Positions 5,195-22,659 of a stretch of DNA of 64,000 nucleotides are shown in pieces. The first letter of the stretch is position 1. Each line of letters starts with the position of its first letter. Below the pieces are notes generated by a model. It was not told the DNA's origin and searched no databases. It saw nothing but the letters and a program-made list of their open reading frames with translations. The stretch spans positions 186,001 through 250,000 of the forward strand of contig NZ_JALKBC010000006.1 of assembly GCF_023015865.1 (NCBI RefSeq), in the 5' to 3' direction. The stretch comes from Arenibacter sp. F26102 (GTDB lineage Bacteria; Bacteroidota; Bacteroidia; Flavobacteriales; Flavobacteriaceae). Position numbers and translations under genes: made by a program.

Positions 5195-5237
5195 TAAAAT
5201 TATAGCAAGTTAAAAACCTGTACTATGACATTTATCA
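5195..5237 (-). promoter_or_regulatory. Fnr-type operator and -10 element upstream of usp
   Basis: The palindromic site TGACATTTATCA (5226-5237) fits TGAY-N4-RTCA. On the minus strand it is followed by TAATTTTA (5195-5202), a one-mismatch TAnnTTTG element. The centre-to-centre distance is 33 bp, as in the other Fnr-type promoters of this window. Likely activator position near -41.5. Confidence 0.65.
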
Positions 5238-5423
5238 GCTTTTGGGTATGGTAGCGAATAGTTGAAAAAAGCGGATATATGCAAGATAAAAAGCAGCTTA
5301 CAGTGGAATTACAACATAAAGAAGAATAATAAAAATGAAGAATTACCCAAATTCGGATATTAGTAGGTCCAGGTTACGCGGAATACCATTATGGCAACAG
5401 CTAGAAATATGGCAAAATTGGAA

Positions 5424-6110
5424 TCAAGCCCCTTTTGCAACATCATTAAGGCCCTGTCTATTGGCAATGGCCACTTTTTTTCCAGATGCCTTTATCAAAC
5501 CCAATTTTTTGAATTCAGAAATAATACGGATTGCAGATTCTGTCGCTGTACCAACTACATTGGCAATATCTTCCCTTGATAATGTTAGGGCCAAATAGCC
5601 ATTTTGATCCTCGCCAAAATTTGTCTCCAAATAAATAAAAGCTTCCGCTATCCTTTGTTTAACTGTTTTTTGGGACATATTAACTATAACATCATCTGCC
5701 TCCTTTAGATCATGGGCTATGTGTCTCAGAACTTCCACGGCAAAATTGGGATTGCTATTTAAGGTATCTACAATAGCATCCTTAGGAATAAAACATACCT
5801 CCATATCATTTACTGCAATGGCACTTAAGTTGGCCACTTCTTCGGTAATTACGGAACGCTGACCCAAAACGGCACCTTTTGTTGCCAGTTTTACTATTTG
5901 ATCTTTTCCGTTGGGGCTTAATTTGGATAATTTGGAAACTCCACCCTTTACACAATATACACCATTGAGCTTATCTCCTTCCCCGAAAATGATTTCCCCT
6001 TTTTTTAAAAATTTGGTAGTTTTAGTATCTGAAACCCTCTTCAACTCCTCCTTGTTCATTGCGCGTAAGGAATTGAATTGGCGAATAATACAATTTTCAC
6101 ATCTGCCCAT
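5424..6110 (-). CDS. Fnr/Crp-family transcriptional regulator
   Basis: A 228-residue regulator with an N-terminal cyclic-nucleotide-like sensor domain (about 20-130), a dimerisation helix and a C-terminal winged helix (about 150-220). In the recognition helix, E191 and R195 match the FNR residues that read the TGA half-site core; FNR Ser212 is replaced by Ile194. Cysteines lie at 4, 7, 53 and 106. C4, C7 and C106 align with E. coli FNR C20, C23 and C122, but the C29 equivalent is Asn13. The gene is divergent from ccoI across a perfect palindrome and so probably controls itself and the cbb3 genes. A redox or oxygen signal is inferred. Confidence 0.85.
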   Translation of the reverse strand: MGRCENCIIRQFNSLRAMNKEELKRVSDTKTTKFLKKGEIIFGEGDKLNGVYCVKGGVSKLSKLSPNGKDQIVKLATKGAVLGQRSVITEEVANLSAIAVNDMEVCFIPKDAIVDTLNSNPNFAVEVLRHIAHDLKEADDVIVNMSQKTVKQRIAEAFIYLETNFGEDQNGYLALTLSREDIANVVGTATESAIRIISEFKKLGLIKASGKKVAIANRQGLNDVAKGA

Positions 6111-6133
6111 TTATTTATTATTACCTGATGTGA

Positions 6134-6207
6134 CAAATTTAAAGGTTATATCTTGGGAAAAAACTGACAATTGTCATGTTTTAGATTGGCAATCATGGCC
6201 ATCTTTG
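6134..6207. promoter_or_regulatory. Bidirectional Fnr-type promoter between fnr-like gene and ccoI
   Basis: The perfect 12-bp palindrome TGACAATTGTCA lies at 6165-6176. Leftward, TAAATTTG (minus strand, 6134-6141) is a perfect TAnnTTTG element; rightward, CATCTTTG (6200-6207) is a one-mismatch version. Both boxes are centred exactly 33 bp from the palindrome centre. A single dimer site could thus serve both the regulator gene and ccoI. Confidence 0.7.
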
Positions 6208-6232
6208 CAACCAGGTATTAAGCAAATATTCT

Positions 6233-8614
6233 ATGGATAAAGAAACTTGCTATCATTGTGGTGACGATTGCGGGAGAACTCCCATAAATCACAATGATAA
6301 AAACTTCTGTTGTGTTGGCTGCAAAACTGTCTATGAGATTTTTGCCAATAACGACTTATCCTACTATTATGACCTACAGTCTGCAGCGGGCGCCTCACCA
6401 AAGGAAATTGAGGGTAAGTACGACTTTCTGGAATCCAAAAACATTATAGAAAAACTTATAGAGTTTAACGATAATGGGACCCAAATTATAAATCTATATA
6501 TACCGCATATACATTGTAGTTCCTGTATTTGGATATTGGAAAACTTAAATAAACTAAATACCGGCATCACCAGTTCTCAGGTAGACTTTCCTAAAAAGAC
6601 CGTAAGGGTTACCTATAATTCCGATAAGATTACCCTTAAGGAATTGGTGCTCCTAATGTCCAGAATTGGATATGAACCCTACATTTCGTTAGACGACTAC
6701 GACAAAAAGAAAAAAGGCACAGACCGTAGTTTATCCTATAAATTGGGAATTGCCGGCTTTGCCTTCGGAAACGTCATGTTTCTTTCCTTCCCTGAATATT
6801 TTGAGGTCGGGGAATTTTGGTTGGAACAATTTAAAGGTATTTTTAGATGGCTAATGTTTGCATTTTCCCTACCTGTGGTATTCTATGCCGCACAGGATTA
6901 TTTTATTTCTGCTTATAAGGGTTTAAGATCAAAATTTTTAAATATTGATATCCCCATTGCCCTAGGTATTCTGGTTTTATTCCTAAGGAGTACCGTTGAA
7001 ATTATTTTCGATTGGGGGTCCGGCTTTTTTGATAGCCTAACAGGATTGGTATTCTTTTTACTTCTAGGCAAATTTTTTCAGCAAAAAACATATTCCTACC
7101 TTTCTTTTGAACGGGATTATAAATCCTATTTCCCCATTGCGGTGACTAGAATTACCAGTAAAAACACCGAGGAGAACACTCAGGTATACGACATAAAAAG
7201 TGGGGATAGGCTCCTAATAAGAAGTGGGGAGTTAATTCCTGTGGATGCTATTTTGATAAATGGAAATGCAAGAATAGATTACAGTTTTGTTACCGGTGAA
7301 TCGGAACCTGTAGACAAAAAATCCGGCGATAAAGTTTATGCCGGTGGACGACAACTGAGTAGCGCTATTGAAATTGAGACCTTAAAATCTGTTTCCCAAA
7401 GCTACCTTACCCAACTTTGGAGCAATGCCGTTTTTCAACAGGATAAATCCGGAAGTTTTCAAACCTTGACCGATAGCATAGGCAAAAGATTTACTATTGC
7501 CGTCTTGACGATAGCCTTTGTCTCAGCATTTATTTGGTTAATTATAGACCCCAGCAAAACCGTAAATGTCTTTACCGCAGTACTCATTATTGCATGTCCT
7601 TGCGCCATTGCCTTGGCAGCCCCTTTTACCTTGGGCAATATGCTGCGGATTTTTGGGCGGAATAGATTTTATTTAAGAGATACACAGACTATTGAACAAT
7701 TGGCGCAGATCGATACTGCTATTTTCGACAAAACAGGTACTATTACTACTGCTGAAAAGGGACATGTATACTATGAAGGGGTGGAATTGACCAGCGAAGA
7801 AGAATCTCTGTTAAAAAATACCTTACGTTCATCCAACCACCCGTTGAGCAGAAAGCTTTATGAAATGTTGGCGGAACAAAACATTGTGCCCTTAGAAGAA
7901 TATGAAGAATATTTAGGACAGGGAATTAAAGGTTCAACCATTTCGGATAGCGTTAAAATTGGTTCGGCTGCCTTTGTCGGCAATACTCAAACAGACAATA
8001 CCGAAAACACCTCGGTACACTTTAGCTCCAACGACCAATACAAGGGCTGTTTTATTTTTCAGAACCAATATCGGGATGGGGTGGCGGAAACCTTCCAAAC
8101 AATGTCCCAAGATCTGGAATTGGCGATCCTATCAGGCGACAACGCTGGTGAAAAATCCAACCTTACTAAATTATTACCCCAGGGAACACCACTATATTTT
8201 AATCAAAAACCGGACAGCAAGCTCCAATTCATTAAGTCGCTCCAAGATCAAAATAAAAAGGTGATGATGGTAGGTGACGGACTAAACGATGCCGGAGCTT
8301 TGGCACAAAGCAATGTAGGCATAGCCATATCAGAAAACGTGAATGTTTTTTCACCCGCTTGTGATGGTATTCTGGATGCTAAAAATTTCAAATTCCTATA
8401 CCAGTATATTTTAGCCTCAAGGAAAGCCATTAAGATCATAAAACTAAGTTTTATCCTTTCTTTATTGTACAATGTAGTGGGGTTATATTTTGCAGTTACC
8501 GGACAATTGGAGCCCGTTATCGCAGCCATTCTAATGCCGCTAAGTTCCATCACTATTGTACTTTTTACCACACTTGCCACAAACAGATTGGGAAGTAAGC
8601 TGGGAAGGGATTAA
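6233..8614 (+). CDS. ccoI: Cu(+)-translocating P1B-type ATPase CcoI/FixI
   Basis: A 793-residue membrane ATPase that supplies copper to the cbb3 oxidase. The cysteine-rich N-terminus (C6, C9, C13, CCVGC at 26-30) is the CcoI signature, followed by a heavy-metal-associated domain with HCSSC at 94-98. Core motifs are TGES (354-357), the copper-channel CPC (455-457), DKTGT phosphorylation site (499-503), HP (536-537) and GDGLND (681-686). About eight membrane helices are expected. It is separated from the ccoS-H operon by the broken cytochrome gene on the other strand and shares its Fnr-type promoter geometry. A terminator follows at 8671. Confidence 0.93.
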   Translation: MDKETCYHCGDDCGRTPINHNDKNFCCVGCKTVYEIFANNDLSYYYDLQSAAGASPKEIEGKYDFLESKNIIEKLIEFNDNGTQIINLYIPHIHCSSCIWILENLNKLNTGITSSQVDFPKKTVRVTYNSDKITLKELVLLMSRIGYEPYISLDDYDKKKKGTDRSLSYKLGIAGFAFGNVMFLSFPEYFEVGEFWLEQFKGIFRWLMFAFSLPVVFYAAQDYFISAYKGLRSKFLNIDIPIALGILVLFLRSTVEIIFDWGSGFFDSLTGLVFFLLLGKFFQQKTYSYLSFERDYKSYFPIAVTRITSKNTEENTQVYDIKSGDRLLIRSGELIPVDAILINGNARIDYSFVTGESEPVDKKSGDKVYAGGRQLSSAIEIETLKSVSQSYLTQLWSNAVFQQDKSGSFQTLTDSIGKRFTIAVLTIAFVSAFIWLIIDPSKTVNVFTAVLIIACPCAIALAAPFTLGNMLRIFGRNRFYLRDTQTIEQLAQIDTAIFDKTGTITTAEKGHVYYEGVELTSEEESLLKNTLRSSNHPLSRKLYEMLAEQNIVPLEEYEEYLGQGIKGSTISDSVKIGSAAFVGNTQTDNTENTSVHFSSNDQYKGCFIFQNQYRDGVAETFQTMSQDLELAILSGDNAGEKSNLTKLLPQGTPLYFNQKPDSKLQFIKSLQDQNKKVMMVGDGLNDAGALAQSNVGIAISENVNVFSPACDGILDAKNFKFLYQYILASRKAIKIIKLSFILSLLYNVVGLYFAVTGQLEPVIAAILMPLSSITIVLFTTLATNRLGSKLGRD

Positions 8615-8670
8615 TCCACGGGCGAACCGTGGCAGACTGAACACAGTTTATAAACAAACCTCAACAAATA

Positions 8671-8701
8671 AAAAGGCAACTGTTTTAAACAGTTGCCTTT
8701 T
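8671..8701. terminator. Bidirectional intrinsic terminator
   Basis: A 15-bp perfect inverted repeat, AAAAGGCAACTGTTT and its complement, separated by one T. The flanking A and T runs let it terminate both ccoI from the left and the convergent cytochrome gene from the right. Confidence 0.85.
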
Positions 8702-8748
8702 ACTTATACATTATCCGTAATGCATTAGGTTAAAGAAAGCTTCCTCCC

Positions 8749-11433
8749 TTATTTCTGTTGCTCCAAATACGCTACCAACGAAGCCATTTCCTCGTAACTT
8801 AGGGCATTTACCAGCCCAGATGGCATCATAGAGGATTCAAGTTCCTTTCTTTCAGCGATATCGGATTTGTTAAGTTGGGTTGCCGTACCTACAATATTTC
8901 TTAGGGTGAGATCGGAAGCGGATTCCTGGGTTACAAACCCAACATAATTATCGCCTCCCTTGGTCTGCATCTGCACTGTTGAAAACCCTTGGGAAATGGA
9001 AGCATTTGGTTTCAGAATAGATTCGGCGATCTGCTCCCTGTTCATTATAGAACCTATTTGCCCCATAAACGGACCTTTCATTACCTCACCTGAAGCTACG
9101 CTATGACAAGTAAAACATGCCTGTGTTTTAAATATTTGCTTGCCTTTTTCCGGATCACCCTTAATATTTTTAAGTGCGATCATAATATCCTCAATGGAAG
9201 CCTCACCAATCTGTCCTTTTTTATTTTTGATCTTTTCAAGGTCTACCGCCGGCATATCTTCCTTGGGAGCGGTTATTTCCACTGTACCAAAATCATCAAT
9301 CGCCAATCGGTACTTGCTGTTAAGTTCTGCATATAATTCCTTTTCTTCTTCTGAAGTTTTTTCCCATTCACCTTTTAAAAAGGAACGGATTACAGGCGTA
9401 TAATCCCATTCTACCGTTTTATAGTATGGACCATGGGTATCCGGACGGGTACTCCACCACCAAGAAGTATCGTAAGGCGCCTCTTTGTGATAAGCACGCG
9501 CCAAGGTATTTATGATCTTATTCTTAAAAAGGGAATCATCTGTTTTTTCATAAGCCTTTATCAAACCATCCACGGCTTCTGGACTATGCATATATCGCAA
9601 TGCCCACAAGGCCAAATCCTTTCGATCGGTATTTAAAGCGCTTACGCATGCATCCACTGCATTTAATTTAACCAAGGTTTTCACCGCCAAATGTGGAACA
9701 ATAATTTCCGCATTTGGTCTTGCATGAGGTCCTTCTGTACCCATCCCAGGGGCTTGAAAGGAATTTGGAACCGCAATTTCCATTAAAGACTTGGCTACTT
9801 CCTTTTTACCCAATCTTCCCAAACCAACAATTGCTGCCGCCCTTACTCGGTCAGAATTGGATTTCAGTGCATTTAAGAATGGTTCTGTAGGCACTTTCTC
9901 AATTGTACCCAACCGATCTGATAATGCCCTTAGGGCAAATTCCTGAACTAGTGAATCTTCTGTCAGGGACACCAAACGGTTTATTCCACCCGCACTCGCT
10001 AATTGGGCAAAAGTGAATATAGCCGCGGAACGTACTTCCAATGGCAAAGTACTGTCTTCCACCAATTGCCATACTTTATCGGCCCCTTTACCTCTTTTCA
10101 GCAATTCGTATTGGGCACTTAGACGTGTCTTGGCATTATCTGCCTTTAATAAATCTACCAAACTACCAGTCCAGAAAAAATCCGCTATATTCGGAAATGG
10201 CTCGTAATTATAGTCTTCAGGTGTAACTCTTACCACATAGCCTTTATCAGGACTTCCAGAATAACCTGCGCCATCCCAAGCCGATAGATACATAGCTCCG
10301 GCCGCATCTACATCCACATCGGTTATTTGTGGCAGTTGTATAAACTCCTCTTCATCCTGAACAAAACTGGCCTTATTTTCAGTAAGCCTATGAAACTACA
10401 AATAGCTTCTACCCCAATCAGCCATCATTGGAACATTATTATATTTTTCCGGCCAACGGTTGTCGTTCATATAAAGTGATCCGGTCCCCGAACCTCCACC
10501 GACATCTACCAATGCGGGAAGAATCTCTTCGGTAAAATGCTTAAAGAGAACAGGGTATCCATATTCCCCGGATTGTATCTGATGGATGAATCTTATGTTC
10601 CATCCACCACCATCATTGGTATTGCCCCTAGTGTAGATATTCATGAACGGGTCAATGGCCACGTCGTAAATATTTCGTAATCCATGGGTATAAACTTCCA
10701 TTTCGGTTCCATCCGGACGAACCCTAACAACTCCTCCGCCCAACATGGTCAATTGGGTTCCATCGCGATCTGTAGCATTATGGAAACCAAAATCACCTAC
10801 GGCAATATATATCCATCCGTCTATTCCCATTTGAATACCGTTGGTGGCATGATCCGTTCCTCTCTCCTGTAGATATTTGGAATTACTTAGGTTCTTTATT
10901 AAAACTTTGGCGGGGCCATCGGCCACCCCATCCTTGTCCAAATCCTCAAACACCACCAAATCCATATTAAAGGCTTTTCCAGTTTCTGGAGAAAAGGTAG
11001 TGTGCAACACAAAAACTTGATCACCTATTGCCAAAATACCACGCGGGTTATCTACCTGAGCAAATTCAGTGTGGGAATCCATAATACCATCATGGTTACA
11101 ATCTACCAACCGCTTTATAAACCCCTTGTTTATTTCCTTGCCTAGGGAGCCCATCATATCTACCCCTACAAAGACCTCCCCTGTGGCAGCTACGGCCATA
11201 CAGGCAGGACTTGGAGTTAGGTCAGAACCGGAGAACCCAGTTATTTTCAAATCCTTTGGCCAATTTAAAACCTGAGCCAAAGAATCCGATGAAGGATAAT
11301 TTATTGCCTGAGCCAAAGAATCCGATGAAGGATAATTTATTGCCTCGGTACTTGGAGTACATGGGGCCTCCTCATGTTTACAACTTAAAACAATCAAACT
11401 TGAAAATAAAATTAAGCCTGCCTTTTTAAACAT
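8749..11433 (-). pseudogene. NHL/HEAT/cytochrome c lipoprotein broken by an in-frame amber codon
   Basis: One reading frame of 894 codons is split by a TAG at 10396-10398. The N-terminal 345 residues have a lipoprotein signal with lipobox ending LSC (about residue 18) and a glucose/sorbosone-dehydrogenase-like beta-propeller. The remainder continues in the same frame with HEAT-like repeats and a C-terminal putative haem-binding domain with ACFTCH (CxxCH). Translation across the TAG is coherent: DWGRSYL-stop-FHRLTENKASF, where homologues usually continue WGRS..xHRL. So a single nonsense change, a sequencing error or readthrough explains the break. The N-terminal linker also has a 12-residue tandem duplication. 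The family is probably periplasmic and sugar- or alcohol-oxidising; the substrate is unknown. Confidence 0.8.
11271..11342. repeat. 36-bp exact tandem duplication
   Basis: Two identical 36-bp units, 11271-11306 and 11307-11342, lie in frame in the cytochrome lipoprotein gene just after the lipobox. Each encodes a 12-residue copy of the AINYPSSDSLAQ linker. A third start of the unit (CCT) follows and diverges. Confidence 0.95.
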
Positions 11434-11814
11434 ATTCTATGAAGTTAAAATTTATTATTACGCTCTAGATTGAAAATTTTGGCCAAGGATTGCCGAATTT
11501 TCAACAGAGCTGGGCAAAACTAAAAATCTTTCACATAATTCCTTGTTTAAAATGAATTATTAGGGCCTAAAACACAAAATTTTGGATTAATCCCATTTTA
11601 TTGGCTTCCTCACTAAAACAAACCTATTAATTATGAAATCCCTTCTTAAATGAATCATGCGATGAATTCACCACAAAAAGTTGAGGATATTGAAGAAAAT
11701 GTAAAATTAATATGCTCTGGACGAGAAGAACTTTCAATATTTTATCAAAACCTGACAAATGTCATATTATACCATAATCCCCATGTTTAGTTTTACGCCC
11801 AAATTCAGGTAGGT
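11434..11814. promoter_or_regulatory. Divergent intergenic region with Fnr-type promoter of ccoS-ccoNO operon
   Basis: This 381-bp spacer separates the broken cytochrome gene from the cbb3 operon. Near the operon, TGACAAATGTCA (11753-11764) is an Fnr-type operator and TAGTTTTA (11788-11795) a one-mismatch TAnnTTTG box, centred exactly 33 bp downstream. The rest (11434-11740) holds no recognisable gene or RNA; the promoter of the leftward gene should lie there. Confidence 0.7.
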
Positions 11815-12021
11815 ATGAGTGTAATTTATTTATTGTTGTCATTGAGTATTATTGTAGCCGTCATATTTTTTGCGGCTTTTATTATTGCCACTAAGAATGG
11901 TCAATATGATGATTCCTATACCCCATCCGTTCGCATGCTTTTTGAAGATGAACTCGTAAAAAGTACTACTGCGGACACCGAAAAAATATCTAACCAAAAA
12001 AGTGAAAGTCAAAAATTGTAA
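11815..12021 (+). CDS. ccoS: Cbb3-type cytochrome oxidase assembly protein CcoS
   Basis: A 68-residue protein with one N-terminal membrane helix (about 4-26) and the CcoS signature QYDDSYTPSVRMLFEDE. CcoS is needed for cofactor insertion into the cbb3 oxidase catalytic subunit. It is the first gene of the operon and its stop is two bases from the ccoNO start, so translation is probably coupled. The ATG is 51 bp after the operator at 11753-11764. Confidence 0.9.
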   Translation: MSVIYLLLSLSIIVAVIFFAAFIIATKNGQYDDSYTPSVRMLFEDELVKSTTADTEKISNQKSESQKL

Positions 12022-12023: not shown

Positions 12024-14225
12024 ATGGAAGTACAACAGTTTTATTACGATAACAAAATCGTAAAAAAATTCCTTTATGCAACTATGTTTTGGGGAATTGT
12101 AGGAATGTCGGTAGGTTTATTGCTTGCCTTTATGTTTCTTTTTCCAAATTTAACCGATGGAATATCTTGGTTGAGTTTTGGCCGTTTAAGGCCCTTACAT
12201 ACCAACGCAGTTATTTTTGCCTTTGTGGGAAATGCCATTTTTGCTGGCGTTTATTATTCTACCCAACGTTTATTAAAGGCGAGAATGTTCAGCGATGCCC
12301 TAAGTAATTTTAATTTCTGGGGATGGCAAGCTATCATAGTTGCAGCGGCAATTACCCTGCCTTTGGGATACTCTTCATCCAAAGAATATGCAGAGCTGGA
12401 ATGGCCTATAGATTTAGCCATTGCCGTGGTCTGGGTGGCCTTTGGCTGGAACCTCATCGGCACAATGTTAAAGAGAAGACAGCGTCATTTATACGTGGCA
12501 ATTTGGTTTTATCTGGCAACATTTGTAACAGTTGCAGTACTTCATATCTTTAATAGTCTTGCCCTTCCCGTTAGTGCCTTCAAAAGTTATTCGGTATATG
12601 CAGGCGTACAGGATGCCTTGGTGCAATGGTGGTACGGACACAATGCCGTGGCATTCTTCCTCACCACACCTTTCTTGGGATTAATGTATTACTTTGTACC
12701 CAAAGCGGCCAATAGGCCTGTATACTCCTATAGATTATCTATCGTACATTTTTGGTCCTTGATATTTATTTACATCTGGGCCGGACCTCACCACTTATTA
12801 TATTCCACTTTACCTGAATGGGCCCAAAATTTAGGGGTAGCCTTTTCAATAATGCTGATCGCACCATCCTGGGGAGGTATGATCAATGGACTACTGACTT
12901 TGCGTGGAGCCTGGGATAAGGTAAGAACAGACCCGGTTTTAAAGTTTATGGTGGTTGCCATTACAGGTTACGGTATGGCCACTTTTGAAGGTCCAATGCT
13001 ATCCCTTAAAAATGTAAATGCCATAGCACATTTTAGCGACTGGATCATTGCCCACGTTCACGTGGGAGCCTTAGCTTGGAACGGATTCTTGACTTTCGGG
13101 ATGATCTACTGGATGGTTCCAAAAATGTTCAAGACAAGATTACACTCAATACCCATGGCCAATTTCCATTTCTGGATAGGTACCCTAGGAATTATACTAT
13201 ATGCACTTCCAATGTATGTTGCAGGCTTTACCCAAGCCTTAATGTGGAAAGAATTTAACCCAGACGGCACCCTGGCTTACGGTAACTTCTTGGAGACAGT
13301 AAATGAAATTATCCCCATGTACTGGATGCGTGCCATTGGAGGTACCATGTACATTATTGGAGCAATAGTCATGATTTACAACGTAGTTGTTACAATTAAA
13401 CAAGGTACCCAAGTAGAGGATGAATTGGCCGAAGCTGCTGCCTTGACCACTGTATCCAAAAAAAGAACAGTTGGAGAAACTTTCCACACTTGGTTGGAGC
13501 GCAAACCTATTCAATTGACCATATTGGCTACAATAGCCATTTTGATCGGGGGAATAATCCAAATAGTACCCACCATTCTGGTAAAATCGAACATTCCGAC
13601 AATAACAAGCGTTAAACCCTATACCCCTCTTGAATTGGAAGGGAGAGATCTTTATATAAGGGAGGGCTGTGTTGGCTGTCACTCCCAAATGATCAGGCCT
13701 TTCCGAAGTGAGGTGGAGCGTTATGGCGAGTACTCCAAAGCTGGAGAATATGTATATGACCATCCCTTCCTATGGGGAAGCAAACGCACAGGTCCAGATC
13801 TTATGAGGATAGGTGGAAAATATTCGGACAACTGGCACTTGAACCATATGTACGACCCACAAAGCACCTCATCAGGCTCTATTATGCCCTCCTATTCATG
13901 GTTGGTGCGCAATAGGCACGATAGAGGTAACATTCAGACCAAAATGGAGACCATGGTTACCCTGGGAGTACCATATTCCGAGGAGGAGATCTCAAATGCC
14001 CCACAATCGATGGATAATCAAGCGGCCAAAATAGAAAAAAATCTATATTCCGACCCCGATTTTGCCAAAGGGTATGAAGAGGACAAAAAATATGCCGCCG
14101 AAAACGGGGAAGAATTCATAGAAATGAAGGATAGGGAAATTGTAGCTATGATTGCCTATCTGCAACGTTTGGGTACGGACATAAAAATAAAGGAAACCGA
14201 CGAAATAATTTCACAAAACAAATAA
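12024..14225 (+). CDS. ccoNO: Cbb3-type cytochrome c oxidase, fused CcoN-CcoO
   Basis: A 733-residue fusion of the catalytic haem-copper subunit (about 1-490) and the monohaem cytochrome c subunit (about 495-733). Expected metal ligands are visible: H59 for the low-spin haem, H206 and H256-H257 for CuB, and H344 and H346 for the haems. The CcoO part has one membrane anchor (500-520) and CVGCH at 549-553. It reduces oxygen to water with high affinity and pumps protons in the inner membrane. The fusion is common in Bacteroidota, so it is not an assembly artefact. It is followed closely by ccoQ and ccoP. Confidence 0.95.
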   Translation: MEVQQFYYDNKIVKKFLYATMFWGIVGMSVGLLLAFMFLFPNLTDGISWLSFGRLRPLHTNAVIFAFVGNAIFAGVYYSTQRLLKARMFSDALSNFNFWGWQAIIVAAAITLPLGYSSSKEYAELEWPIDLAIAVVWVAFGWNLIGTMLKRRQRHLYVAIWFYLATFVTVAVLHIFNSLALPVSAFKSYSVYAGVQDALVQWWYGHNAVAFFLTTPFLGLMYYFVPKAANRPVYSYRLSIVHFWSLIFIYIWAGPHHLLYSTLPEWAQNLGVAFSIMLIAPSWGGMINGLLTLRGAWDKVRTDPVLKFMVVAITGYGMATFEGPMLSLKNVNAIAHFSDWIIAHVHVGALAWNGFLTFGMIYWMVPKMFKTRLHSIPMANFHFWIGTLGIILYALPMYVAGFTQALMWKEFNPDGTLAYGNFLETVNEIIPMYWMRAIGGTMYIIGAIVMIYNVVVTIKQGTQVEDELAEAAALTTVSKKRTVGETFHTWLERKPIQLTILATIAILIGGIIQIVPTILVKSNIPTITSVKPYTPLELEGRDLYIREGCVGCHSQMIRPFRSEVERYGEYSKAGEYVYDHPFLWGSKRTGPDLMRIGGKYSDNWHLNHMYDPQSTSSGSIMPSYSWLVRNRHDRGNIQTKMETMVTLGVPYSEEEISNAPQSMDNQAAKIEKNLYSDPDFAKGYEEDKKYAAENGEEFIEMKDREIVAMIAYLQRLGTDIKIKETDEIISQNK

Positions 14226-14228: not shown

Positions 14229-14423
14229 ATGCTAAAATTTGTAAAAGGCTATATGGAAAGTATAGATGGCGTTGCCACCTACCCCATGATATCGCTGCTA
14301 ATCTTCTTTTTGTTTTTCACCATTCTTTTCTGGTGGGTATTTACTGCCTCTAAAGAACATATCAAGGAAGTAAGCGAAATACCATTAGAAACAGAAAACC
14401 AAACTAAAGAAGAATTATTATGA
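14229..14423 (+). CDS. ccoQ: Cbb3-type oxidase small subunit CcoQ
   Basis: A 64-residue protein with one membrane helix (about 22-41) and a charged tail, in the normal position between ccoO and ccoP. CcoQ stabilises the oxidase complex. Its TGA overlaps the ccoP ATG (ATGA at 14420-14423). Identification is mostly by position, size and topology, because sequence conservation of CcoQ is low. Confidence 0.8.
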   Translation: MLKFVKGYMESIDGVATYPMISLLIFFLFFTILFWWVFTASKEHIKEVSEIPLETENQTKEELL

Positions 14424-15298
14424 AAAATATGTCACCTTGGTGGATAAGAATCCCGGTAATCTTTTTCCTAATCTTCGGATTGATGGAGTATTTTATTGAC
14501 TCCGGGGACAAACCAGCATTTATTGAATACCCTATCACCCTTCTTTTTATGTTGATGGTGTTGTTCATTTTGATAGGAATTGAATTGATTCTTAAATCTG
14601 TGGAAAACGTAATGTTCCAAACATTATCCCCTGAAGCACAAAATCGCTATTTAGAAACCAAATCGAAGCAATGGGAGTGGAAATGGGGTAAGGAATTCTG
14701 GGAAAAAATGACCGGAAACAAACCTATAGAGGAAGAAAAGGAAATTATCCTAGACCACAATTACGACGGTATCCGCGAATTGGACAACAATCTTCCACCT
14801 TGGTGGGTGTATATGTTCTATGCCACCATAATTTTCGGTGTGGTTTACCTCGCCCGTTTCCACGTATTTAATGATTACACCCAGAACATGGAATATGAAC
14901 AGGAAGTAGCTGAAGCCATGATTGCCATTGAAGAATACAAAAAAACGGCCAAGGGCTTGGTTGACGCCAGCACCGTGGAACTTTTGACCGAGGCTTCCGA
15001 CATTAAGGCCGGGGCTATTATATATAGCTCCAGTTGTGTAGCCTGCCATATGCCGGATGGCGGTGGAGGCATAGGCCCTAATCTTACGGACGAACATTGG
15101 ATCTTGGGCGGTGGAATCAAAAACGTTTTCCATACCATTTCTGAAGGCGGTAGGGACGGTAAGGGAATGATAGCTTGGAAACAGACCCTTAAACCAGTCG
15201 AAATAGCGCAAGTGGCCAGCTTTATACTTAGTGAAATAAACGGCAAGGAACCTGCCAATCCAAAGGCCGCTGAGGGAAAAATCTGGTCCGGGGAGTAG
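14420..15298 (+). CDS. ccoP: Cbb3-type oxidase subunit CcoP with a single haem c
   Basis: A 292-residue membrane-anchored cytochrome c that passes electrons to CcoO/CcoN. It has two N-terminal helices (about 8-25 and 38-60), a third near 128-148 with the CcoP N-terminal motif LPPWWVYMFY, and one CVACH haem site at 206-210. Proteobacterial CcoP carries two haem sites; the second is absent here, as in other Bacteroidota. An in-frame ATG three codons downstream is an alternative start. It overlaps ccoQ by 4 bp. Confidence 0.92.
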   Translation: MKNMSPWWIRIPVIFFLIFGLMEYFIDSGDKPAFIEYPITLLFMLMVLFILIGIELILKSVENVMFQTLSPEAQNRYLETKSKQWEWKWGKEFWEKMTGNKPIEEEKEIILDHNYDGIRELDNNLPPWWVYMFYATIIFGVVYLARFHVFNDYTQNMEYEQEVAEAMIAIEEYKKTAKGLVDASTVELLTEASDIKAGAIIYSSSCVACHMPDGGGGIGPNLTDEHWILGGGIKNVFHTISEGGRDGKGMIAWKQTLKPVEIAQVASFILSEINGKEPANPKAAEGKIWSGE

Positions 15299-15366: not shown

Positions 15367-16785
15367 ATGGCACAGGACCAGGACAATTTTAGGGATTCCA
15401 TAGGAACTATAAATGAGGATGGGAAAAGGGCTTGGATTTTTCCAAAAAAACCAAGTGGAAAGTTTTATGAATATCGCAAATATGTAAGTTATGTTCTTTT
15501 GGCCTTTCTTTTTCTGGCGCCATTTTTAAAAATAAATGGAAATCAGTTCTTAATGTTCAATGTTCTCGAAAGGCGTTTCAACATATTTGGATTTCCATTT
15601 TGGCCACAGGATTTTCATCTTTTTGTAATTTCGATGATAATCGGGGTAATATTCATAGCCCTGTTTACCGTTGCTTTTGGGCGTATTTTTTGCGGTTGGA
15701 TGTGCCCCCAAACCATCTTCATGGAAATGGTCTTTAGGAGGATAGAATTTTGGATCGATGGCGACCGAGGTGCCCAAATACGCCTAAGTAAACAACCTTG
15801 GAATGCTGAAAAAATTAGAAAACGAGGCCTTAAATTAATTGTTTTCTTCATTATTTCCTTTTTGATCGCCAATGTTTTCTTGGCTTATTTAATAGGCAGT
15901 GACCGCTTAATGCAATACATCACGGATGGACCCTTACAACATGTAAGCACTCTAGTATCCCTTTTAATTTTTACTGCGGTATTCTATTTTGTATTTGCCT
16001 GGTTCAGGGAACAAGTATGTATCATAGCTTGCCCATATGGGAGGATGCAAGGAGTACTACTCGACAATAAATCTATTGTGGTTGCATATGACCATAAACG
16101 TGGGGAAGCGGAAAATGGAAGGAAAAAGTTTAGAAAAGGAGAGGATAGAAATGCGCTCGGAAATGGCGACTGTATTGATTGTTTTCAATGCGTAAACGTC
16201 TGCCCAACTGGTATAGATATAAGAAATGGAACTCAACTGGAATGCATCAATTGTACCGCGTGTATTGATGAATGCGATACCATAATGGAAAAGGTAAACC
16301 TTCCCAAAGGACTTATACGTTATGCCAGTGAAGACAACATTGAAAAAAAGTCAAAGTTTACATTTACCCCTAGGCTCAAAGGGTATACCGCAGTACTTGT
16401 TATACTCACTGGAATATTGATTGGCATGTTGTTTTTGAGAAATGAGGTAGAAGCCAATATCTTAAGACTGCCTGGACAATTATACGAGCACAAGGAAGGC
16501 AATATTATTAGCAATGTTTACACTTATAAGTTAGTAAATAAAACTACCAAGGTCATTAACGACGTGAGTTTTAAACTGTTGTCGCACAAAGGGACAATCA
16601 ACTTAGTTAGGCATGAACATTTTATAGTGCCTGCACAAGAAATGGCGGAAGGAACCTTATTTGTTGAAATAAATAATTCGGCTTTGGAAGGTGACAAGAA
16701 CAAATTAAGGATTGGAGTCTATAGTGGGGAAGAATTAATTGAAACGGCCACCGCCAGATTTTTAGCCCCCAGAAGCTATAAGTAA
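15367..16785 (+). CDS. ccoG: Cbb3 oxidase accessory polyferredoxin CcoG (RdxA/FixG)
   Basis: A 472-residue membrane protein with about five transmembrane helices, conserved GWMCPQTIF and IIACPYGRMQG segments near residues 115 and 225, and two [4Fe-4S] ferredoxin motifs (CIDCFQCVNVCPTG and CINCTACIDEC, about 274-310). A C-terminal Ig-like domain follows a last helix near 340-360. CcoG is thought to reduce Cu(II) for delivery to the oxidase. It lies 68 bp after ccoP and probably belongs to the same transcript. Confidence 0.93.
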   Translation: MAQDQDNFRDSIGTINEDGKRAWIFPKKPSGKFYEYRKYVSYVLLAFLFLAPFLKINGNQFLMFNVLERRFNIFGFPFWPQDFHLFVISMIIGVIFIALFTVAFGRIFCGWMCPQTIFMEMVFRRIEFWIDGDRGAQIRLSKQPWNAEKIRKRGLKLIVFFIISFLIANVFLAYLIGSDRLMQYITDGPLQHVSTLVSLLIFTAVFYFVFAWFREQVCIIACPYGRMQGVLLDNKSIVVAYDHKRGEAENGRKKFRKGEDRNALGNGDCIDCFQCVNVCPTGIDIRNGTQLECINCTACIDECDTIMEKVNLPKGLIRYASEDNIEKKSKFTFTPRLKGYTAVLVILTGILIGMLFLRNEVEANILRLPGQLYEHKEGNIISNVYTYKLVNKTTKVINDVSFKLLSHKGTINLVRHEHFIVPAQEMAEGTLFVEINNSALEGDKNKLRIGVYSGEELIETATARFLAPRSYK

Positions 16786-17348: not shown

Positions 17349-18050
17349 ATGTTGTTATCTGCCTTTATTATGGGACTAATGGGAAGCTTTCACTGCGTAG
17401 GAATGTGCGGTCCTATTGCCTTTATGTTACCGGTAGACCACAATAACCCCGCTAAAAAATTATTGCAGGTTTTTCTATACCATTTGGGCAGGCTTACTTC
17501 CTACAGTATTCTTGGTCTAATTTTTGGATTTTTGGGCAAAGGACTTTATGTATTTGGAATACAGCAAAGGCTTTCGATCATAATTGGGGTCCTGATGATT
17601 ACTGTAATACTTATTCCCTATAAAACTTTTAGCAAGTACAATTTCTCCAAACCTATATATTCCCTTTTGTCCAAAGTAAAAAGCCGACTTGGAAAAGAAT
17701 TAAAGAAAAAGAGTCCAGATACATTTTTAACCATTGGCCTCCTTAACGGACTACTTCCTTGTGGGTTGGTTTATATGGCCCTCTTTGGTAGTATCGCCAC
17801 GGCCAGCCCATGGCTCGGAGTGCTATTCATGTTCTTATTTGGAGTGGGAACCATTCCCTTGATGACCTCTGCTGTTTACTTTGGCAGTGTATTGAAAGGC
17901 CGTGCCAAAAAATCCGTTCAACAACTGATTCCTGTTTTCGTAGTCCTAATAGGGCTATTGTTTATATTAAGGGGTATGGGACTTGGAATTCCCTATATTT
18001 CTCCGGAGCCCGTTATAGAGATGGCTACCAGTACTCTGGATTGCCATTAA
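17349..18050 (+). CDS. Sulfite exporter TauE/SafE-like membrane protein (DsbD_2 type)
   Basis: A 233-residue protein with six predicted membrane helices. The first has the GSFHCVGMCGP motif with two cysteines and a histidine; a second conserved segment is LLPCGLVY. Members next to cco genes are thought to take part in copper or haem-related oxidase maturation, not sulfite export. It is the last gene of the cbb3 operon. The metal or redox role is inferred from position and the Cys/His motif. Confidence 0.8.
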   Translation: MLLSAFIMGLMGSFHCVGMCGPIAFMLPVDHNNPAKKLLQVFLYHLGRLTSYSILGLIFGFLGKGLYVFGIQQRLSIIIGVLMITVILIPYKTFSKYNFSKPIYSLLSKVKSRLGKELKKKSPDTFLTIGLLNGLLPCGLVYMALFGSIATASPWLGVLFMFLFGVGTIPLMTSAVYFGSVLKGRAKKSVQQLIPVFVVLIGLLFILRGMGLGIPYISPEPVIEMATSTLDCH

Positions 18051-18193
18051 AAGCCCCTTCCACTAATCTTAAATCAGATTTGTAGTACTTGTAAAAATAG
18101 TGTAATTTTCTAGTGCATTGGAATCCCTGTTCCTAAACATTTGGGATTAAATTGGACAATGTACAAGTGCAACCGGACCTTAAGCAACAACCA

Positions 18194-19063
18194 ATGAAAA
18201 GAGTTATACTTATCTGTTATCTTATTTTAAATGCAACCTTATTATTTTCCCAAGGGGAAAAGGTCAACATAATAGTCTTTGGTGCCCATCCTGATGATTG
18301 TGATATTGACACAGGTGGCACAGCCATTTTACTTGCAAAACTGGGCCACAATGTAAAATTTGTTTCCCTCACCAATGGTGACGCCGGTCATTATGCCATG
18401 GGCGGTGGGGAACTTGCCAAAATAAGGATTGCAGAGGCCAAGGAAGCAGGTAAACGATTTGGGGTGGAATATACGGTATTGGACAACCATGATGGGGAAT
18501 TGATGCCAACTTTGGAAAATCGTCTAAAGGTGATACGTGAAATTAGAAAATGGAATGCCGATGTGGTCATTGCCCCACGACCCAATGACTACCATCCGGA
18601 CCACAGGTATACGGGTGTTTTGGTGCAAGACGCAGCTTATATGGTCATAGTACCCAATGTGGCCCCCGAAGTACCACCTCTCCAAAAAAATCCGGTCTTC
18701 CTATACTCTGAAGATGGTTTTCAAAAACCTAGTCCTTTTAAACCTGATATCCCCGTAATTATCGATGCTGTTTTTGATCCAAAAATTTACGCCATGTCGG
18801 CACACAAATCCCAGTTCTTTGAATGGCTTCCCTGGACCGCCGGCAATTTGGAAAAAGTACCCAAGGATGATAAGGGCAGATTGGAAATGTTGGCCAATTG
18901 GAGGTCTCAAGCTCCCAATGAAGCCCTATTGAAATGCGCTGAAAAATGGTACGGCAATAAAGCTTCCTACGCTAAACATATAGAGGGATTTGAAATATGC
19001 GAGTACGGTAAGCAACCCACAGATCAGGAAATAATGATGCTATTCCCCATGCTTATAAGATAG
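18194..19063 (+). CDS. Secreted PIG-L (LmbE-like) family deacetylase
   Basis: A roughly 289-residue zinc-dependent N-deacetylase of the GlcNAc-PI de-N-acetylase fold. The zinc motif AHPDD follows shortly after the signal, and the second metal/catalytic segment PNDYHPDHR is present. I place the start at the ATG at 18194, which gives a clean signal peptide (MKRVILICYLILNATLLFSQ); the frame upstream begins only with a TTG. The protein is therefore exported. Substrate is probably an N-acetylated sugar or glycoside. It is convergent with the amidohydrolase gene. Confidence 0.85.
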   Translation: MKRVILICYLILNATLLFSQGEKVNIIVFGAHPDDCDIDTGGTAILLAKLGHNVKFVSLTNGDAGHYAMGGGELAKIRIAEAKEAGKRFGVEYTVLDNHDGELMPTLENRLKVIREIRKWNADVVIAPRPNDYHPDHRYTGVLVQDAAYMVIVPNVAPEVPPLQKNPVFLYSEDGFQKPSPFKPDIPVIIDAVFDPKIYAMSAHKSQFFEWLPWTAGNLEKVPKDDKGRLEMLANWRSQAPNEALLKCAEKWYGNKASYAKHIEGFEICEYGKQPTDQEIMMLFPMLIR

Positions 19064-19091
19064 TATGGAATGCAGTTTTATGGATGTTTGA

Positions 19092-20159
19092 CTAGTCCAG
19101 TATCTTTTTGGCATTTTCGTTATACACCTTTTTCAAAACTTCATCACTAAGTCCCAAACCGTTAAAGGACCAGTGATAAGATGAGATATTTTTATCGTAA
19201 AAATGCTCGTCCTCGGTTTCTAAAATTCGAAATGTCAATTCGTACATTTCTGGGTCATTGCCCATATCCGTACCATAAACTAATTTGTCCTGATACTTTT
19301 CATAAAAACGTTTTGTATAACGGGGAACGGCAGCAGTTTCAGCAAATCTGGCCGATATATCGGCGTACATATTATCATATTTACCCAACAACCTTCCAAG
19401 AATTTCCAAATCATGGCTACAATTAGCAAAGTGACAAGCTATAAAAGTAGTCTTCGGATTTTCCCTAACCGCATTTTCTAGGGTAGCAATTAATTGCCCG
19501 TGGGTCAACAACCCCTCCTTTTGAGTATCTATGCGCCATTTGTAAGCGTTCATCAGCCCATCATTATGAACATCCATGGGTTCGTACATCCACATGGGAT
19601 CAGCAACATGAATGCTAACAGGCATGCCAAGTTCCCCACATTTTTCCCACAGAGCCTTCATCCTCTCATCATCTGCATGCATTCCTTTTGTCGGAGTGGG
19701 TTTGGAGTAAAAGAAACCAAGACCTTTATCGCCCAATTCGCCAACTCCCCTAGCTCCCATCTTGTAGCATCTTTCCAATTCCTTTACAGCGTTTTTACTC
19801 CATCCCTTTTCATTGTAACCCGTAAAATCGAAACCGCACCAAAGTTCAAATCTGTCCCCATATTTGGAGTAAAGGTTTACAATACTATCAAAGGACTTCC
19901 CGGTTTGGTAGGTAAGTATAATGGATTTTGCAATCCCAAATTTGTCCATTGTCTTTACCCATTCCCTTATTTCCAGTTCTGATTTGGGATTGGGATGCGA
20001 ATGAAAATCCACCACAGGAAATTTAGCTTTGGCTATTTTGGTCTTTGGAATATTGTAAATGGATACAGGGTCGTAATCCTTTAATAACATATCTTCCTGC
20101 GCTCTAACAGTATTGGAAATAAAAACAACCGAAAAAAAAATGATGGCATAAACTTTCAT
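19092..20159 (-). CDS. Secreted metal-dependent amidohydrolase (Amidohydro_2 family)
   Basis: A 355-residue protein with an N-terminal signal peptide (to about residue 21, ending VRAQ) and a TIM-barrel amidohydrolase fold. The metal motif VDFHSH is present near residue 50, a conserved HFANCSHD near 240, and YGTDMGND near 300. Family members hydrolyse or decarboxylate cyclic and aromatic acids, or lactones. The substrate is unknown. It is not in an operon with a recognisable pathway. Gene ends are 29 bp from the convergent PIG-L gene. Confidence 0.75.
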   Translation of the reverse strand: MKVYAIIFFSVVFISNTVRAQEDMLLKDYDPVSIYNIPKTKIAKAKFPVVDFHSHPNPKSELEIREWVKTMDKFGIAKSIILTYQTGKSFDSIVNLYSKYGDRFELWCGFDFTGYNEKGWSKNAVKELERCYKMGARGVGELGDKGLGFFYSKPTPTKGMHADDERMKALWEKCGELGMPVSIHVADPMWMYEPMDVHNDGLMNAYKWRIDTQKEGLLTHGQLIATLENAVRENPKTTFIACHFANCSHDLEILGRLLGKYDNMYADISARFAETAAVPRYTKRFYEKYQDKLVYGTDMGNDPEMYELTFRILETEDEHFYDKNISSYHWSFNGLGLSDEVLKKVYNENAKKILD

Positions 20160-20323
20160 ATTGAGGATTTTTTGGTATAAGTTGATAATGACAAACCCAT
20201 ATCGCTCAAATATAACGATTTAAGCCATACTTGGTACCACTAATTCAACACGACAAAAATCAAAACCAAGGTAATTAAATTAGGTTCAAAGTTTCATTAA
20301 CCCTAATACTTTTACCGAAGTCG

Positions 20324-21145
20324 TTAAATTTTAAAAGTGATAACAGGTATTTTGGAATGATTGGTCACATCCTCCCCTATACTACCCATAAGAAAGTGGG
20401 AAAGTCCTTTTCTTCCATGTGTGGGCAAACCTATTAAATCGGCATTCCTACCTTCACTAAAACTAAGTATTCCCCTTTCTACGGTATAGTCATTATATAT
20501 CTCGACCTCCAAACTCGCTTTCGCCAAATGTAGAAACTTATTAATTTTTTTGAAGGCATCTTTTGTGCTCAAGAAATTATCTCCTGGAGTATTAATATTT
20601 ACCAAAATCAATTCTGCATCAAGCTTATCTGCCAATTTTTTTGCCTTATGAAAGGCTTCCAGGTTTTCCTCCTCAAAATCACAGGCAAATACAAATCTCT
20701 TCACCTCGAAACCCTCAATATAATCCTTGATTACTAGGACCGGAATATTGGAATTTCTTACCATTTTTTCAGCATTGGAACCCACAAAAATTTCTTTGAT
20801 TCCATCGGTCCCTTGAGAACCCATTACAATTAGATCAGCATCATGCTTTTCTGCAATGGCATTCACTTCGCTATACACCTTATGGTGTTTAACAATAGGC
20901 GTAGTCTTGATGCCCTTTAAGTATGGTTTATCCAAAAATGATTCAAACCTTTTTTCTGCCAGTTTTATTAAAAAAACAGCTTGTTCGTAATGCGCCTGCT
21001 CATTGGATGAAACAAGAGCCGCCGACAATTCCAGCATATGCAGAACGAAAATCTCAGAGCCATATTTTGTAGCGATGGAAGCTGCGGTTTTTAATGCATT
21101 TTCGGATTGTTCTGAAAAATCTACGGGTACTATAATTTTTTTCAT
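20324..21145 (-). CDS. Universal stress protein, two tandem Usp domains
   Basis: A 273-residue protein with two UspA domains. The first has the nucleotide-binding pattern G-S-Q-G followed by nine residues and GS (around residues 105-120). The second ends with a similar THGRKG...MGSIGE segment, so both domains may bind nucleotide, unlike the protein at 4244. It follows hemN by 84 bp on the same strand with no obvious own operator, so it is probably cotranscribed with hemN under the Fnr-type regulator. Confidence 0.85.
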   Translation of the reverse strand: MKKIIVPVDFSEQSENALKTAASIATKYGSEIFVLHMLELSAALVSSNEQAHYEQAVFLIKLAEKRFESFLDKPYLKGIKTTPIVKHHKVYSEVNAIAEKHDADLIVMGSQGTDGIKEIFVGSNAEKMVRNSNIPVLVIKDYIEGFEVKRFVFACDFEEENLEAFHKAKKLADKLDAELILVNINTPGDNFLSTKDAFKKINKFLHLAKASLEVEIYNDYTVERGILSFSEGRNADLIGLPTHGRKGLSHFLMGSIGEDVTNHSKIPVITFKI

Positions 21146-21229
21146 CTGTTTATATTTATTAATAATTTTAAACTAGAAATTAAATATTGAGCCCGAACCT
21201 TAGATTACCTAAACAGGCGTATGAAACAG

Positions 21230-22591
21230 CTAGATAGTCATTGAAAACAATCTTGTATCAGGCGCTTTACGATGCAGGAACAAATCGAATGCCATACATA
21301 CATTACGCACAAAGGGCCTTCCCTTTTCGGTAACATAAATACTGTCTGAAGATATTTCCACCAACCCATCCAAAGCCATTTCACTTAGCTTATCCCTTAC
21401 GACATCCAACTCGCTGAACACTTCATGTTGATTTTCCCAACTAGTCTTAAATCTACACATTAAATTTAAGATATGCTTCCGAATAATCTTGTCTTCCTTG
21501 GTTAAAATATGTCCTCTATAAATTGGAATAATATTATTTTCAACAAGATGGCTGTACTCTTCCAGGTTTTTTACATTTTGGGCAAAGCTATCCCAACTAT
21601 CACTAATACTGGAAACTCCCAAACCGATCATTACACGTGTTTTAGAAGCAGTATAGCCCATAAAATTTCTATGTAACGTCCCATTATCCATGGCTTTATA
21701 GAGCGTATCCGTCTTTAGTGAAAAATGATCCATCCCTATTTCGGAATAACCAACCTCACCCAACAACGCCTTTCCCATTTCATACTGCTCCCGCTTTTCC
21801 TCAGCAGTAGGCAGGTCTGAATCTTTATACCCTCTTTGTCCATTTCCCTTCAACCAAGGGACATGTGCATAACTATAGAAGGCCAAACGGTCTGGCATTA
21901 ACTCCTTGGTCTTTAAGATTGTTTGGGCAACATCGTCTTTGGATTGGAAGGGCAAACCAAAAATAATATCATGTCCTACCGAAGTATACCCAATTTCCCT
22001 AGCCCATTCGGTAACATTTTTTACGTTGGCAAAAGGTTGCAACCTATGAATGGCAAGCTGAACTTTTTTATTATAATCCTGAACTCCATAACTCACTCTT
22101 CTAAAACCTACATTGTAAAGGGCCTGCAGGTGTTCCTTGGTGGTGTTGTTTGGATGTCCTTCAAAGCTAAATTCATAATTCTCCGCACGGGCGGCAGTTT
22201 TAAAAATGCCATTAACAAGTCGGGTTAAATTTTCAGGGGAGAAAAATGTTGGGGTTCCCCCTCCCAGATGGAGTTCCTTTATTCTTGGTTTTGTATTGAA
22301 CAAATCGCAATAAAGCTTCCACTCCTTTAAGACATTGCTTATATATGGATTTTCAACTTCATGTCTCTTGGTTATTCTTTTATGGCAGCCACAAAATGTA
22401 CAAAGGCTTTCACAGAAAGGCAAATGAATGTAGAGACTAATTCCTTGGTCCTCATTACTTTCATTAAAACTATCGATTAAAGTAGATTTCCATTGAAGAC
22501 CAGAAAAAGATTCCAAATCCCAATAGGGAACAGTAGGGTAACTGGTATAACGGGGGCCAGGAATATTATATTTTTGGACCAAATTGGACAT
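21230..22591 (-). CDS. hemN: Oxygen-independent coproporphyrinogen III oxidase
   Basis: A 453-residue radical SAM enzyme that decarboxylates coproporphyrinogen III to protoporphyrinogen IX without oxygen. The CxxxCxxC cluster motif with the HemN-type trailing cysteine is seen in CESLCTFCGCHK near residues 59-70, followed by LHLGGGTPTFF. The length is typical of true HemN (about 455), longer than HemW. The promoter carries TGACACTTATCA, which fits induction at low oxygen together with the cbb3 oxidase that needs haem. Confidence 0.93.
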   Translation of the reverse strand: MSNLVQKYNIPGPRYTSYPTVPYWDLESFSGLQWKSTLIDSFNESNEDQGISLYIHLPFCESLCTFCGCHKRITKRHEVENPYISNVLKEWKLYCDLFNTKPRIKELHLGGGTPTFFSPENLTRLVNGIFKTAARAENYEFSFEGHPNNTTKEHLQALYNVGFRRVSYGVQDYNKKVQLAIHRLQPFANVKNVTEWAREIGYTSVGHDIIFGLPFQSKDDVAQTILKTKELMPDRLAFYSYAHVPWLKGNGQRGYKDSDLPTAEEKREQYEMGKALLGEVGYSEIGMDHFSLKTDTLYKAMDNGTLHRNFMGYTASKTRVMIGLGVSSISDSWDSFAQNVKNLEEYSHLVENNIIPIYRGHILTKEDKIIRKHILNLMCRFKTSWENQHEVFSELDVVRDKLSEMALDGLVEISSDSIYVTEKGRPFVRNVCMAFDLFLHRKAPDTRLFSMTI

Positions 22592-22616
22592 AAGCAGTTT
22601 TTGTATGAGATTGCAA

Positions 22617-22659
22617 CAAAAATACCATGATGGGGATTATTAAAATATGACACTTATCA
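22617..22659 (-). promoter_or_regulatory. Fnr-type operator and -10 element of hemN
   Basis: TGACACTTATCA lies at 22648-22659. On the minus strand TATTTTTG (22617-22624), a perfect TAnnTTTG element, is centred exactly 33 bp closer to the gene, 26 bp before the ATG. Confidence 0.75.

Follow-up and report, generated by a model that had tools for sequence, protein, structure and literature searches.

A proposed class-II Crp/Fnr-type operator with probably two kinds of reader in Arenibacter sp. F26102 and its relatives

A 64,000-nucleotide stretch of the genome of the marine bacterium Arenibacter sp. F26102 (contig NZ_JALKBC010000006.1, positions 186,001 to 250,000; hereafter the window) carries genes for a cbb3 oxidase, a copper ATPase, HemN, universal stress proteins (Usp) and an Fnr-like regulator. 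At five promoters of these genes, the palindrome TGAY-N4-RTCA lies at one fixed distance upstream of a TAnnTTTG box. We consider it likely that this pair represents a single class-II operator recognized by regulators of two kinds, the Fnr-like protein and receiver-Crp/Fnr fusions encoded elsewhere in the genome, and that it drives a low-oxygen programme. We infer binding, activation, the signal and the reader at each promoter from the sequence, spacing, conservation and co-occurrence of the sites and from the content of the genes behind them.

An initial annotation of the window had placed palindromes at 5226, 6165, 11753 and 22648, each 33 bp from a TAnnTTTG box, and all four are present at these coordinates. 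The distance, measured from the centre of the palindrome to the centre of the box and equal to a gap of 23 bp between them, is exact in five of five directions; two boxes are perfect and three contain one mismatch (Table 1). The remaining three palindromes of the window (1022, 18379 and 51498) have no box with zero or one mismatch at 26-41 bp on either side. By itself, the palindrome is not enriched in the window, with 7 copies compared to 4.06±2.24 in shuffled sequences, 12 of 100 of which reach 7. This lack of enrichment, along with the GC content of 39%, would fit a chance alignment of palindrome-like and TAnnTTTG-like words in AT-rich promoters, an explanation that we regard as extremely improbable in view of the following counts. 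The spaced pair was counted over the whole 5.44 Mb genome, with the same pair pattern reversed as a control. Pairs with at most one mismatch numbered 81 (39 + 42), compared to 7 (1 + 6) for the control. When the gap was left free between 8 and 38 bp (31 spacings), 24 of the 47 exact pairs in the genome fell at gap 23. Individual gaps were also counted in 462.6 kb, consisting of the window and 398.6 kb of genome picked because sites lay there; this is a biased sample, the unbiased counts being those of the whole-genome pair scan, the free-gap scan and the family-genome and phylum scans described below. These 462.6 kb contain 86 palindromes. With both directions counted, 20 exact boxes lie at gap 23. 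Boxes with at most one mismatch number 54 at this gap, compared to 2 and 1 at the neighbouring gaps of 22 and 24, and any other gap from 5 to 49 holds at most 1 exact box and at most 5 with up to one mismatch. The box is present at 45 of 61 intergenic palindromes and at 3 of 25 within open reading frames (ORFs), as defined by our own ORF calls. Conservation across 80 loci and the family-genome scan (1168 pairs versus 21 for its control) likewise speak against coincidence, and the reversed-pattern and other-gap controls led us to reject chance or base composition.

Concerning the operator itself, the logo of the 39 promoters beyond the window reads [A/C]TGAY-N4-RTCA-T, the final T occurring in 94%, and the last base of the TAnnTTTG box is G in 66% and A in 33%. 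The classical FNR-type site is TTGAY-N4-RTCAA. The initial annotation had taken the outer T/A to be missing and the core to be shorter; because the consensus carries A/C and T at these places, the outer base is different rather than missing. In Bacteroidetes, the primary sigma factor uses TAnnTTTG as its -7 element. According to PMC7366714, this is confirmed in Flavobacterium johnsoniae, where a -33 element could not be identified; PMC10620806 also covers the -7 element for Bacteroides. An operator centred 33 bp upstream of the -7 box is predicted to lie near -41 from the expected start. This is the class-II position of Crp/Fnr activators. As expected of class-II sites, the operator keeps to a single position that overlaps the upstream element of the promoter, gap 23 alone being enriched among gaps of 5-49; more distant placements, up to a gap of 49 bp, show no enrichment in the 462.6 kb. 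At 29 of 50 sites, the next start codon follows the box by 20-60 bp. We propose that [A/C]TGAY-N4-RTCA-T would be the operator of a class-II activator, and that a bound dimer of the Crp/Fnr fold near -41 would stand in for the -33 contact and recruit the polymerase.

The divergent junction between the regulator gene and ccoI was compared with 80 orthologous regulator loci in other genomes. The exact palindrome is kept within 400 bp upstream of the regulator in 73 of the 80 loci, and the divergent gene is ccoI-like in 79. At gap 23, a box with zero or one mismatch is found on the ccoI side in 69 loci, and the regulator side has its box in 53. Other gaps account for at most 1 locus on the divergent side and at most 3 on the regulator side, save for gap 9 with 15. 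Nearly all of the divergent boxes differ from TA at the first base, most of them reading CAnnTTTG.

Among the 81 pairs in the genome, 5 are in the window and 38 sit in three islands, C83:118-175 kb (22 pairs), C84:165-192.5 kb (9) and C44:180.5-192 kb (7). The others are scattered, and chance matches within ORFs are likely among them. The genes behind the sites, both within the islands and elsewhere, encode among others several Usp (three by Pfam), Hsp20, DnaJ, FtsH, an M50 protease with a CBS domain, a BON protein, PfkB, phosphotransacetylase, DeoC, patatin, a cation P-ATPase, a pyridoxamine-phosphate-oxidase-like protein, a copper-oxidase/cytochrome c protein of the nitrite-reductase type and a cytochrome c. 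Genes for acetate kinase, a PPDK/PpsA-type enzyme, glucokinase and a phosphorylase are interspersed between them. Taken together, these genes look like a programme for survival, fermentation and respiration, and this content leads us to infer low oxygen as the trigger. Alternatively, the protein at the site might repress transcription, or it might be an activator whose signal is carbon or general stress and not oxygen. Usp, Hsp20, DnaJ and FtsH targets would be compatible with general stress, and carbon sensing has been predicted for Flavobacteriales CRP/FNR homologues (PMC8510549). On the other hand, the sole enriched position among gaps of 5-49 is the class-II activator place and not one over the -7 box. 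In addition, the cbb3 oxidase, copper ATPase, HemN, nitrite reductase-like protein and fermentation enzymes make up a low-oxygen gene set; cbb3 oxidases, copper ATPases, HemN, nitrite reductases and fermentation enzymes are classic low-oxygen genes. We therefore find the alternative improbable and favour a low-oxygen activator.

In the window (Table 1), the Fnr-like protein would be the most likely reader, in keeping with the palindrome retained at 73 of 80 orthologous junctions. Its targets there would be the regulator gene itself, ccoI, the cco genes, hemN and usp.

Table 1. Operators, -7 boxes and genes in the window
Feature	Position	Strand	Sequence or model match
usp -7 box, one mismatch	5195..5202	-	TAATTTTA
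usp operator (minus-strand reading)	5226..5237	-	TGATAAATGTCA
Regulator gene -7 box, exact	6134..6141	-	TAAATTTG
Divergent operator common to the regulator gene and ccoI	6165..6176	unstranded	TGACAATTGTCA
ccoI -7 box, one mismatch	6200..6207	+	CATCTTTG
Operator of the cco genes	11753..11764	+	TGACAAATGTCA
ccoS -7 box, one mismatch	11788..11795	+	TAGTTTTA
hemN -7 box, exact	22617..22624	-	TATTTTTG
hemN operator (minus-strand reading)	22648..22659	-	TGATAAGTGTCA
Usp gene behind the 5226 site	4244..5146	-	Pfam Usp 7.7e-22
Fnr-like Crp/Fnr regulator, 228 aa, Cys 4, 7, 53 and 106	5424..6110	-	Pfam cNMP_binding + HTH_Crp_2
CcoI-like copper P-type ATPase	6233..8614	+	
CcoS (FixS) oxidase maturation protein	11815..12021	+	Pfam FixS 3.9e-19 on 11818-12018
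CcoNO fusion, subunits I/II of cbb3 oxidase	12024..14225	+	
CcoP-like subunit III	14420..15298	+	ccoP model 2.6e-31, under the model cut-off
CcoG accessory protein	15367..16785	+	
Second Usp, same strand as and downstream of hemN, probably co-transcribed	20324..21145	-	Pfam Usp
HemN, oxygen-independent coproporphyrinogen III oxidase	21230..22591	-	TIGR00538, above cut-off

The Fnr-like regulator contains cNMP_binding (5.8e-18) and HTH_Crp_2 (5.1e-14) domains in Pfam, and is 97% and 96% identical to its counterparts in Arenibacter hampyeongensis and A. catalasegens. The best match among solved structures is the Crp/Fnr regulator 2gau (4.6e-24), followed by FNR-type regulators (7.5e-23). When aligned with an FNR-type structure, C4, C7, C106 and N13 each match a cysteine, whereas C53 matches an alanine; the four cysteines are those of the FNR cluster (C20, C23, C29 and C122 in E. 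coli numbering). Each of these five residues is invariant in 81 of 81 Fnr-type sequences, and so are E191, S192, I194 and R195 of the recognition helix. The protein thus lacks the four-cysteine set of FNR and has an extra one in C53, and its helix departs from the Glu-x-x-Ser-Arg of FNR, Glu and Arg being kept and Ile194 standing where FNR has Ser. The score against the NCBI FNR subfamily model NF008365 is 104.1 bits, below the cut-off of 228. As N13 and I194 replace the FNR Cys and Ser, the regulator misses sequence features that define FNR, and it probably works like FNR all the same. It is probably a redox or oxygen sensor by way of its cysteines. A structure prediction made for the proximity of C53 to Cys4, 7 and 106 was too poor to use (mean pLDDT 61.6, pTM 0.43, 69 of 228 residues below 50).

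A search with the window regulator identified five Crp/Fnr proteins in the genome, itself included. Two are encoded inside the C83 island, and both are receiver-cNMP-HTH_Crp fusions (Response_reg 8.8e-28 and 4.1e-28). Each adjoins a PAS kinase, one recognized by Pfam and the other read by eye, and the exact site C83:142200 heads one kinase-fusion pair. In an alignment of 22 fusions, 2 from this genome and 20 from others, the phospho-acceptor Asp is kept in all 22, and each of 20 neighbourhoods has a kinase homologue next to its fusion; the fusions thus have the make-up of response regulators, a receiver with its phospho-acceptor and a kinase alongside. E191, I194 and R195 of the helix are found in 22 of 22 fusions, all of which have either Ser or Thr at position 192. 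Cysteines 4, 7 and 53 of the Fnr-type are absent from all 22, and 106 from 20. Concerning the kinases, the best match of the first PAS domain of one of them is FixL (1.4e-13), and 13 of 15 known-structure matches are FixL or DosP/YddU haem sensors. The alignment of kinase homologues comprised 19 sequences, one of the 20 neighbourhoods having yielded no PAS match; the proximal His aligned with that of FixL is present in 19 of 19 and the distal Arg in 15 of 19, residues that occur in non-haem PAS domains too. These matches would fit haem oxygen sensing by the kinase PAS domain, and are suggestive only. In the survival and fermentation islands, the operator would most likely be read by the two receiver-Crp/Fnr response regulators, which are probably phosphorylated by the adjoining PAS kinases.

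The relation between sites and regulators was examined in 149 genomes of the family, where the 1168 exact pairs occur in 134 genomes, at least one in each. Genomes were classed with cuts of 1e-45 for Fnr and 1e-60 for the fusion, chosen after the match lists had been inspected. Pair density was 0.50 per Mb with neither regulator (29 genomes, 35 pairs), 1.92 with Fnr only (54 genomes, 357 pairs), 2.70 with the fusion only (30 genomes, 266 pairs) and 3.68 with both (36 genomes, 510 pairs), compared to 0.01-0.06 per Mb for the control across the four classes. No pair was found in 15 of the 29 genomes with neither regulator and in 0 of the 120 with a regulator. Mann-Whitney p values, uncorrected for relatedness, were 7e-10 (neither versus Fnr only), 4e-9 (neither versus fusion only), 9e-8 (Fnr only versus both) and 0.003 (fusion only versus both). 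Of the 30 fusion-only genomes, 20 supplied fusion neighbourhoods; they were taken in the order of their labels, and G089 was passed over because of a contig end. These 383 kb contain 78 pairs at gap 23 with at most one mismatch, in 19 of 20 neighbourhoods, compared to 0 for the control and at most 5 at each of 12 other gaps tested. A search of all 30 fusion-only genomes identified ccoNO in 28 of them and hemN in 23. A pair with at most one mismatch lies within 600 bp upstream of ccoNO in 26 of 28 and within 400 bp upstream of hemN in 22 of 23, although one of the latter, at 325 bp, may serve another gene. The operator at ccoNO and hemN thus persists without an Fnr orthologue.

Taking these results into account, we weighed the possibility that the Fnr-like protein is the sole reader in this genome, and that the fusions have other binding sites and are only located within an island under Fnr control. 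The regulator gene itself carries the site, and the site excess in genomes with Fnr only would agree with this. Against it are the density of sites in the fusion-only genomes, their accumulation beside the fusion and their presence at ccoNO and hemN, the recognition-helix residues common to fusions and Fnr-type proteins, and the higher number of sites with both regulators than with Fnr alone. We hold a sole reader to be unlikely. Since the island fusions share the helix residues and the site persists in fusion-only genomes, the operator probably has two or more kinds of reader; where an Fnr orthologue is missing, it is plausible that the fusions also control the cco and hemN promoters. Much of the microaerobic regulon proposed in the initial annotation is retained, namely a Crp/Fnr regulator, class-II sites, genes for the cbb3 oxidase, copper ATPase, HemN and Usp, and a junction that is conserved. 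Its assignment to the Fnr-like protein as the one reader proved too narrow, considering that nearly half of the pairs are in islands, the largest of which encodes the two fusions.

The association between operator and fusion extends beyond the family. In a scan of the phylum, the exact pair was found in 51 of 118 genomes, most densely in Flavobacteriaceae and Flavobacteriales. Across the class, a full-length fusion occurs in 33 of 60 genomes (34 matches, one of them receiver-only). Among the other 32 genomes with a full-length match, 20 were picked by hand, all of them from outside the family. Their fusion neighbourhoods (374 kb) hold 26 pairs at gap 23, in 13 of 20, compared to 2 for the control and at most 4 at each other gap from 14 to 33, and the genes behind the sites include ccoNO, ccoI, Usp and kinase genes. 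The association seems older than the family and weaker outside it. Many of the exact pairs listed for G160 and G241, of the same order and another family, read RTCATAAA after the palindrome versus RTCATTTT, and the flank may vary by lineage.

Several observations weigh against an operator with these two readers. The exact palindrome is absent from 7 of the 80 regulator loci, and 20 of the 73 loci that have it lack the regulator-side box, 4 being without any box and 16 without that of the regulator side only. The regulator has three of the four FNR cluster cysteines, the place of C29 being taken by Asn13 in 81 of 81 sequences. Unlike the Fnr-type and the fusions, the two further Crp/Fnr paralogues of the genome have the helix sequences ETLAR and AVLNR, and their targets may matter for the assignment of readers. 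The co-occurrence statistics ignore relatedness among the genomes. Three genomes with neither regulator have 5-9 exact pairs, G048 (9 pairs, 82% complete), G147 (7, 73%) and G138 (5, 99%). A ccoNO match is present in just 3 of the 29 genomes of this class, one of them distant (34% identity), and both close ccoNO genes carry the exact site, so this negative control failed and discriminates nothing. G020, placed in this class by the cut, has a divergent Fnr (1e-41, below the cut) on the same contig.

A difference in the operator itself was considered as a mark of its reader. The window sites read TGAYA-NN-TRTCA in 5 of 5 cases versus 9 of 43 in the C83, C84 and C44 stretches (Fisher p 0.0012), and the GC content of N4 is 0.9% in 291 sites of the 80 regulator loci versus 14% in the 78 found near fusions. 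The loci, however, represent a small number of orthologous promoters many times over, and a count by eye in five Fnr-only and four fusion-only genomes gave a much smaller difference; operator subtype was rejected as a mark and kept as a lead only.

Some further features were noticed near the sites. In the interval from ccoI to ccoS (8749-11433), two oppositely oriented genes that have no such site before them match PVC-type haem-binding CxxCH models (TIGR02603 and TIGR02604). Directly behind the exact site C83:156325 and ahead of a Usp gene lies a low-complexity ORF with a long valine run, a simple repeat (C83:156365-156559). At C11:566459-569388, the gene for the copper-oxidase/cytochrome c fusion of the nitrite-reductase type and an alginate-export-like porin gene each have a site before them, as do two similar adjoining genes at C44:183556-185479, the first of which encodes a BON-domain protein. 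Proteins of about 100 residues behind sites near fusions (L138:15850, L140:8423, L149:16253, L151:3652, L152:15815 and L155:15753) resemble ribosome hibernation factors by eye.

The arrangement can be compared with known systems. FNR/Anr class-II promoters of Proteobacteria share the Crp/Fnr activator, the TGAY-N4-RTCA core, a site near -41 and cbb3, hemN and Usp targets. They differ in the outer bases, T...A instead of A/C...T, and in the Bacteroidetes -7 box found here; moreover, one cluster cysteine of FNR is replaced in our regulator and another gained, and the helix Ser is changed to Ile. hemN is among the Anr targets in the abstract of PMC6588701. In the FixLJ-FixK cascade of rhizobia (compare PMC7888657), a PAS kinase, a receiver protein and a Crp/Fnr output feed cbb3 genes, whereas receiver and Crp/Fnr output are in one chain here. 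The DosRS(T) dormancy regulon of mycobacteria is alike in its two-component control and in a set rich in Usp, Hsp20-like and PfkB-like proteins; its output is of the LuxR/NarL-type and not Crp/Fnr, and operator and promoter differ. The Flavobacteriales CRP/FNR homologues of PMC8510549 belong to the same superfamily and order; in that paper, the scan used a Bacteroides MalR matrix, not the present operator, and the homologues are treated as MalR-like carbon sensors. In titles and abstracts of the open literature, subscription papers being mostly outside it, we found no account of the operator, the spacing or a receiver-Crp/Fnr fusion acting on it, and no description of the control of cbb3 oxidase and anaerobic haem synthesis in Flavobacteriaceae.

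A wider reading seems to us to have an even chance of being correct. Across Bacteroidia, one class-II box would serve two unrelated inputs, an Fnr with rearranged cysteines and a phosphorylation-gated fusion under the control of a haem-PAS kinase. Such a fusion would amount to FixJ and FixK combined in a single chain. Lineages would have swapped readers with the cbb3 and hemN operators unmoved, and the fusion would also command a DosR-like survival island. The analysis yields an exact operator with a defined spacing, several dozen promoters that may form its regulon and two candidate classes of regulator. If true, the exchange of readers at an unchanged operator would provide a clean natural example of one regulator replacing another, and a Crp/Fnr output controlled by phosphorylation would be an unusual gating of a well-known fold.

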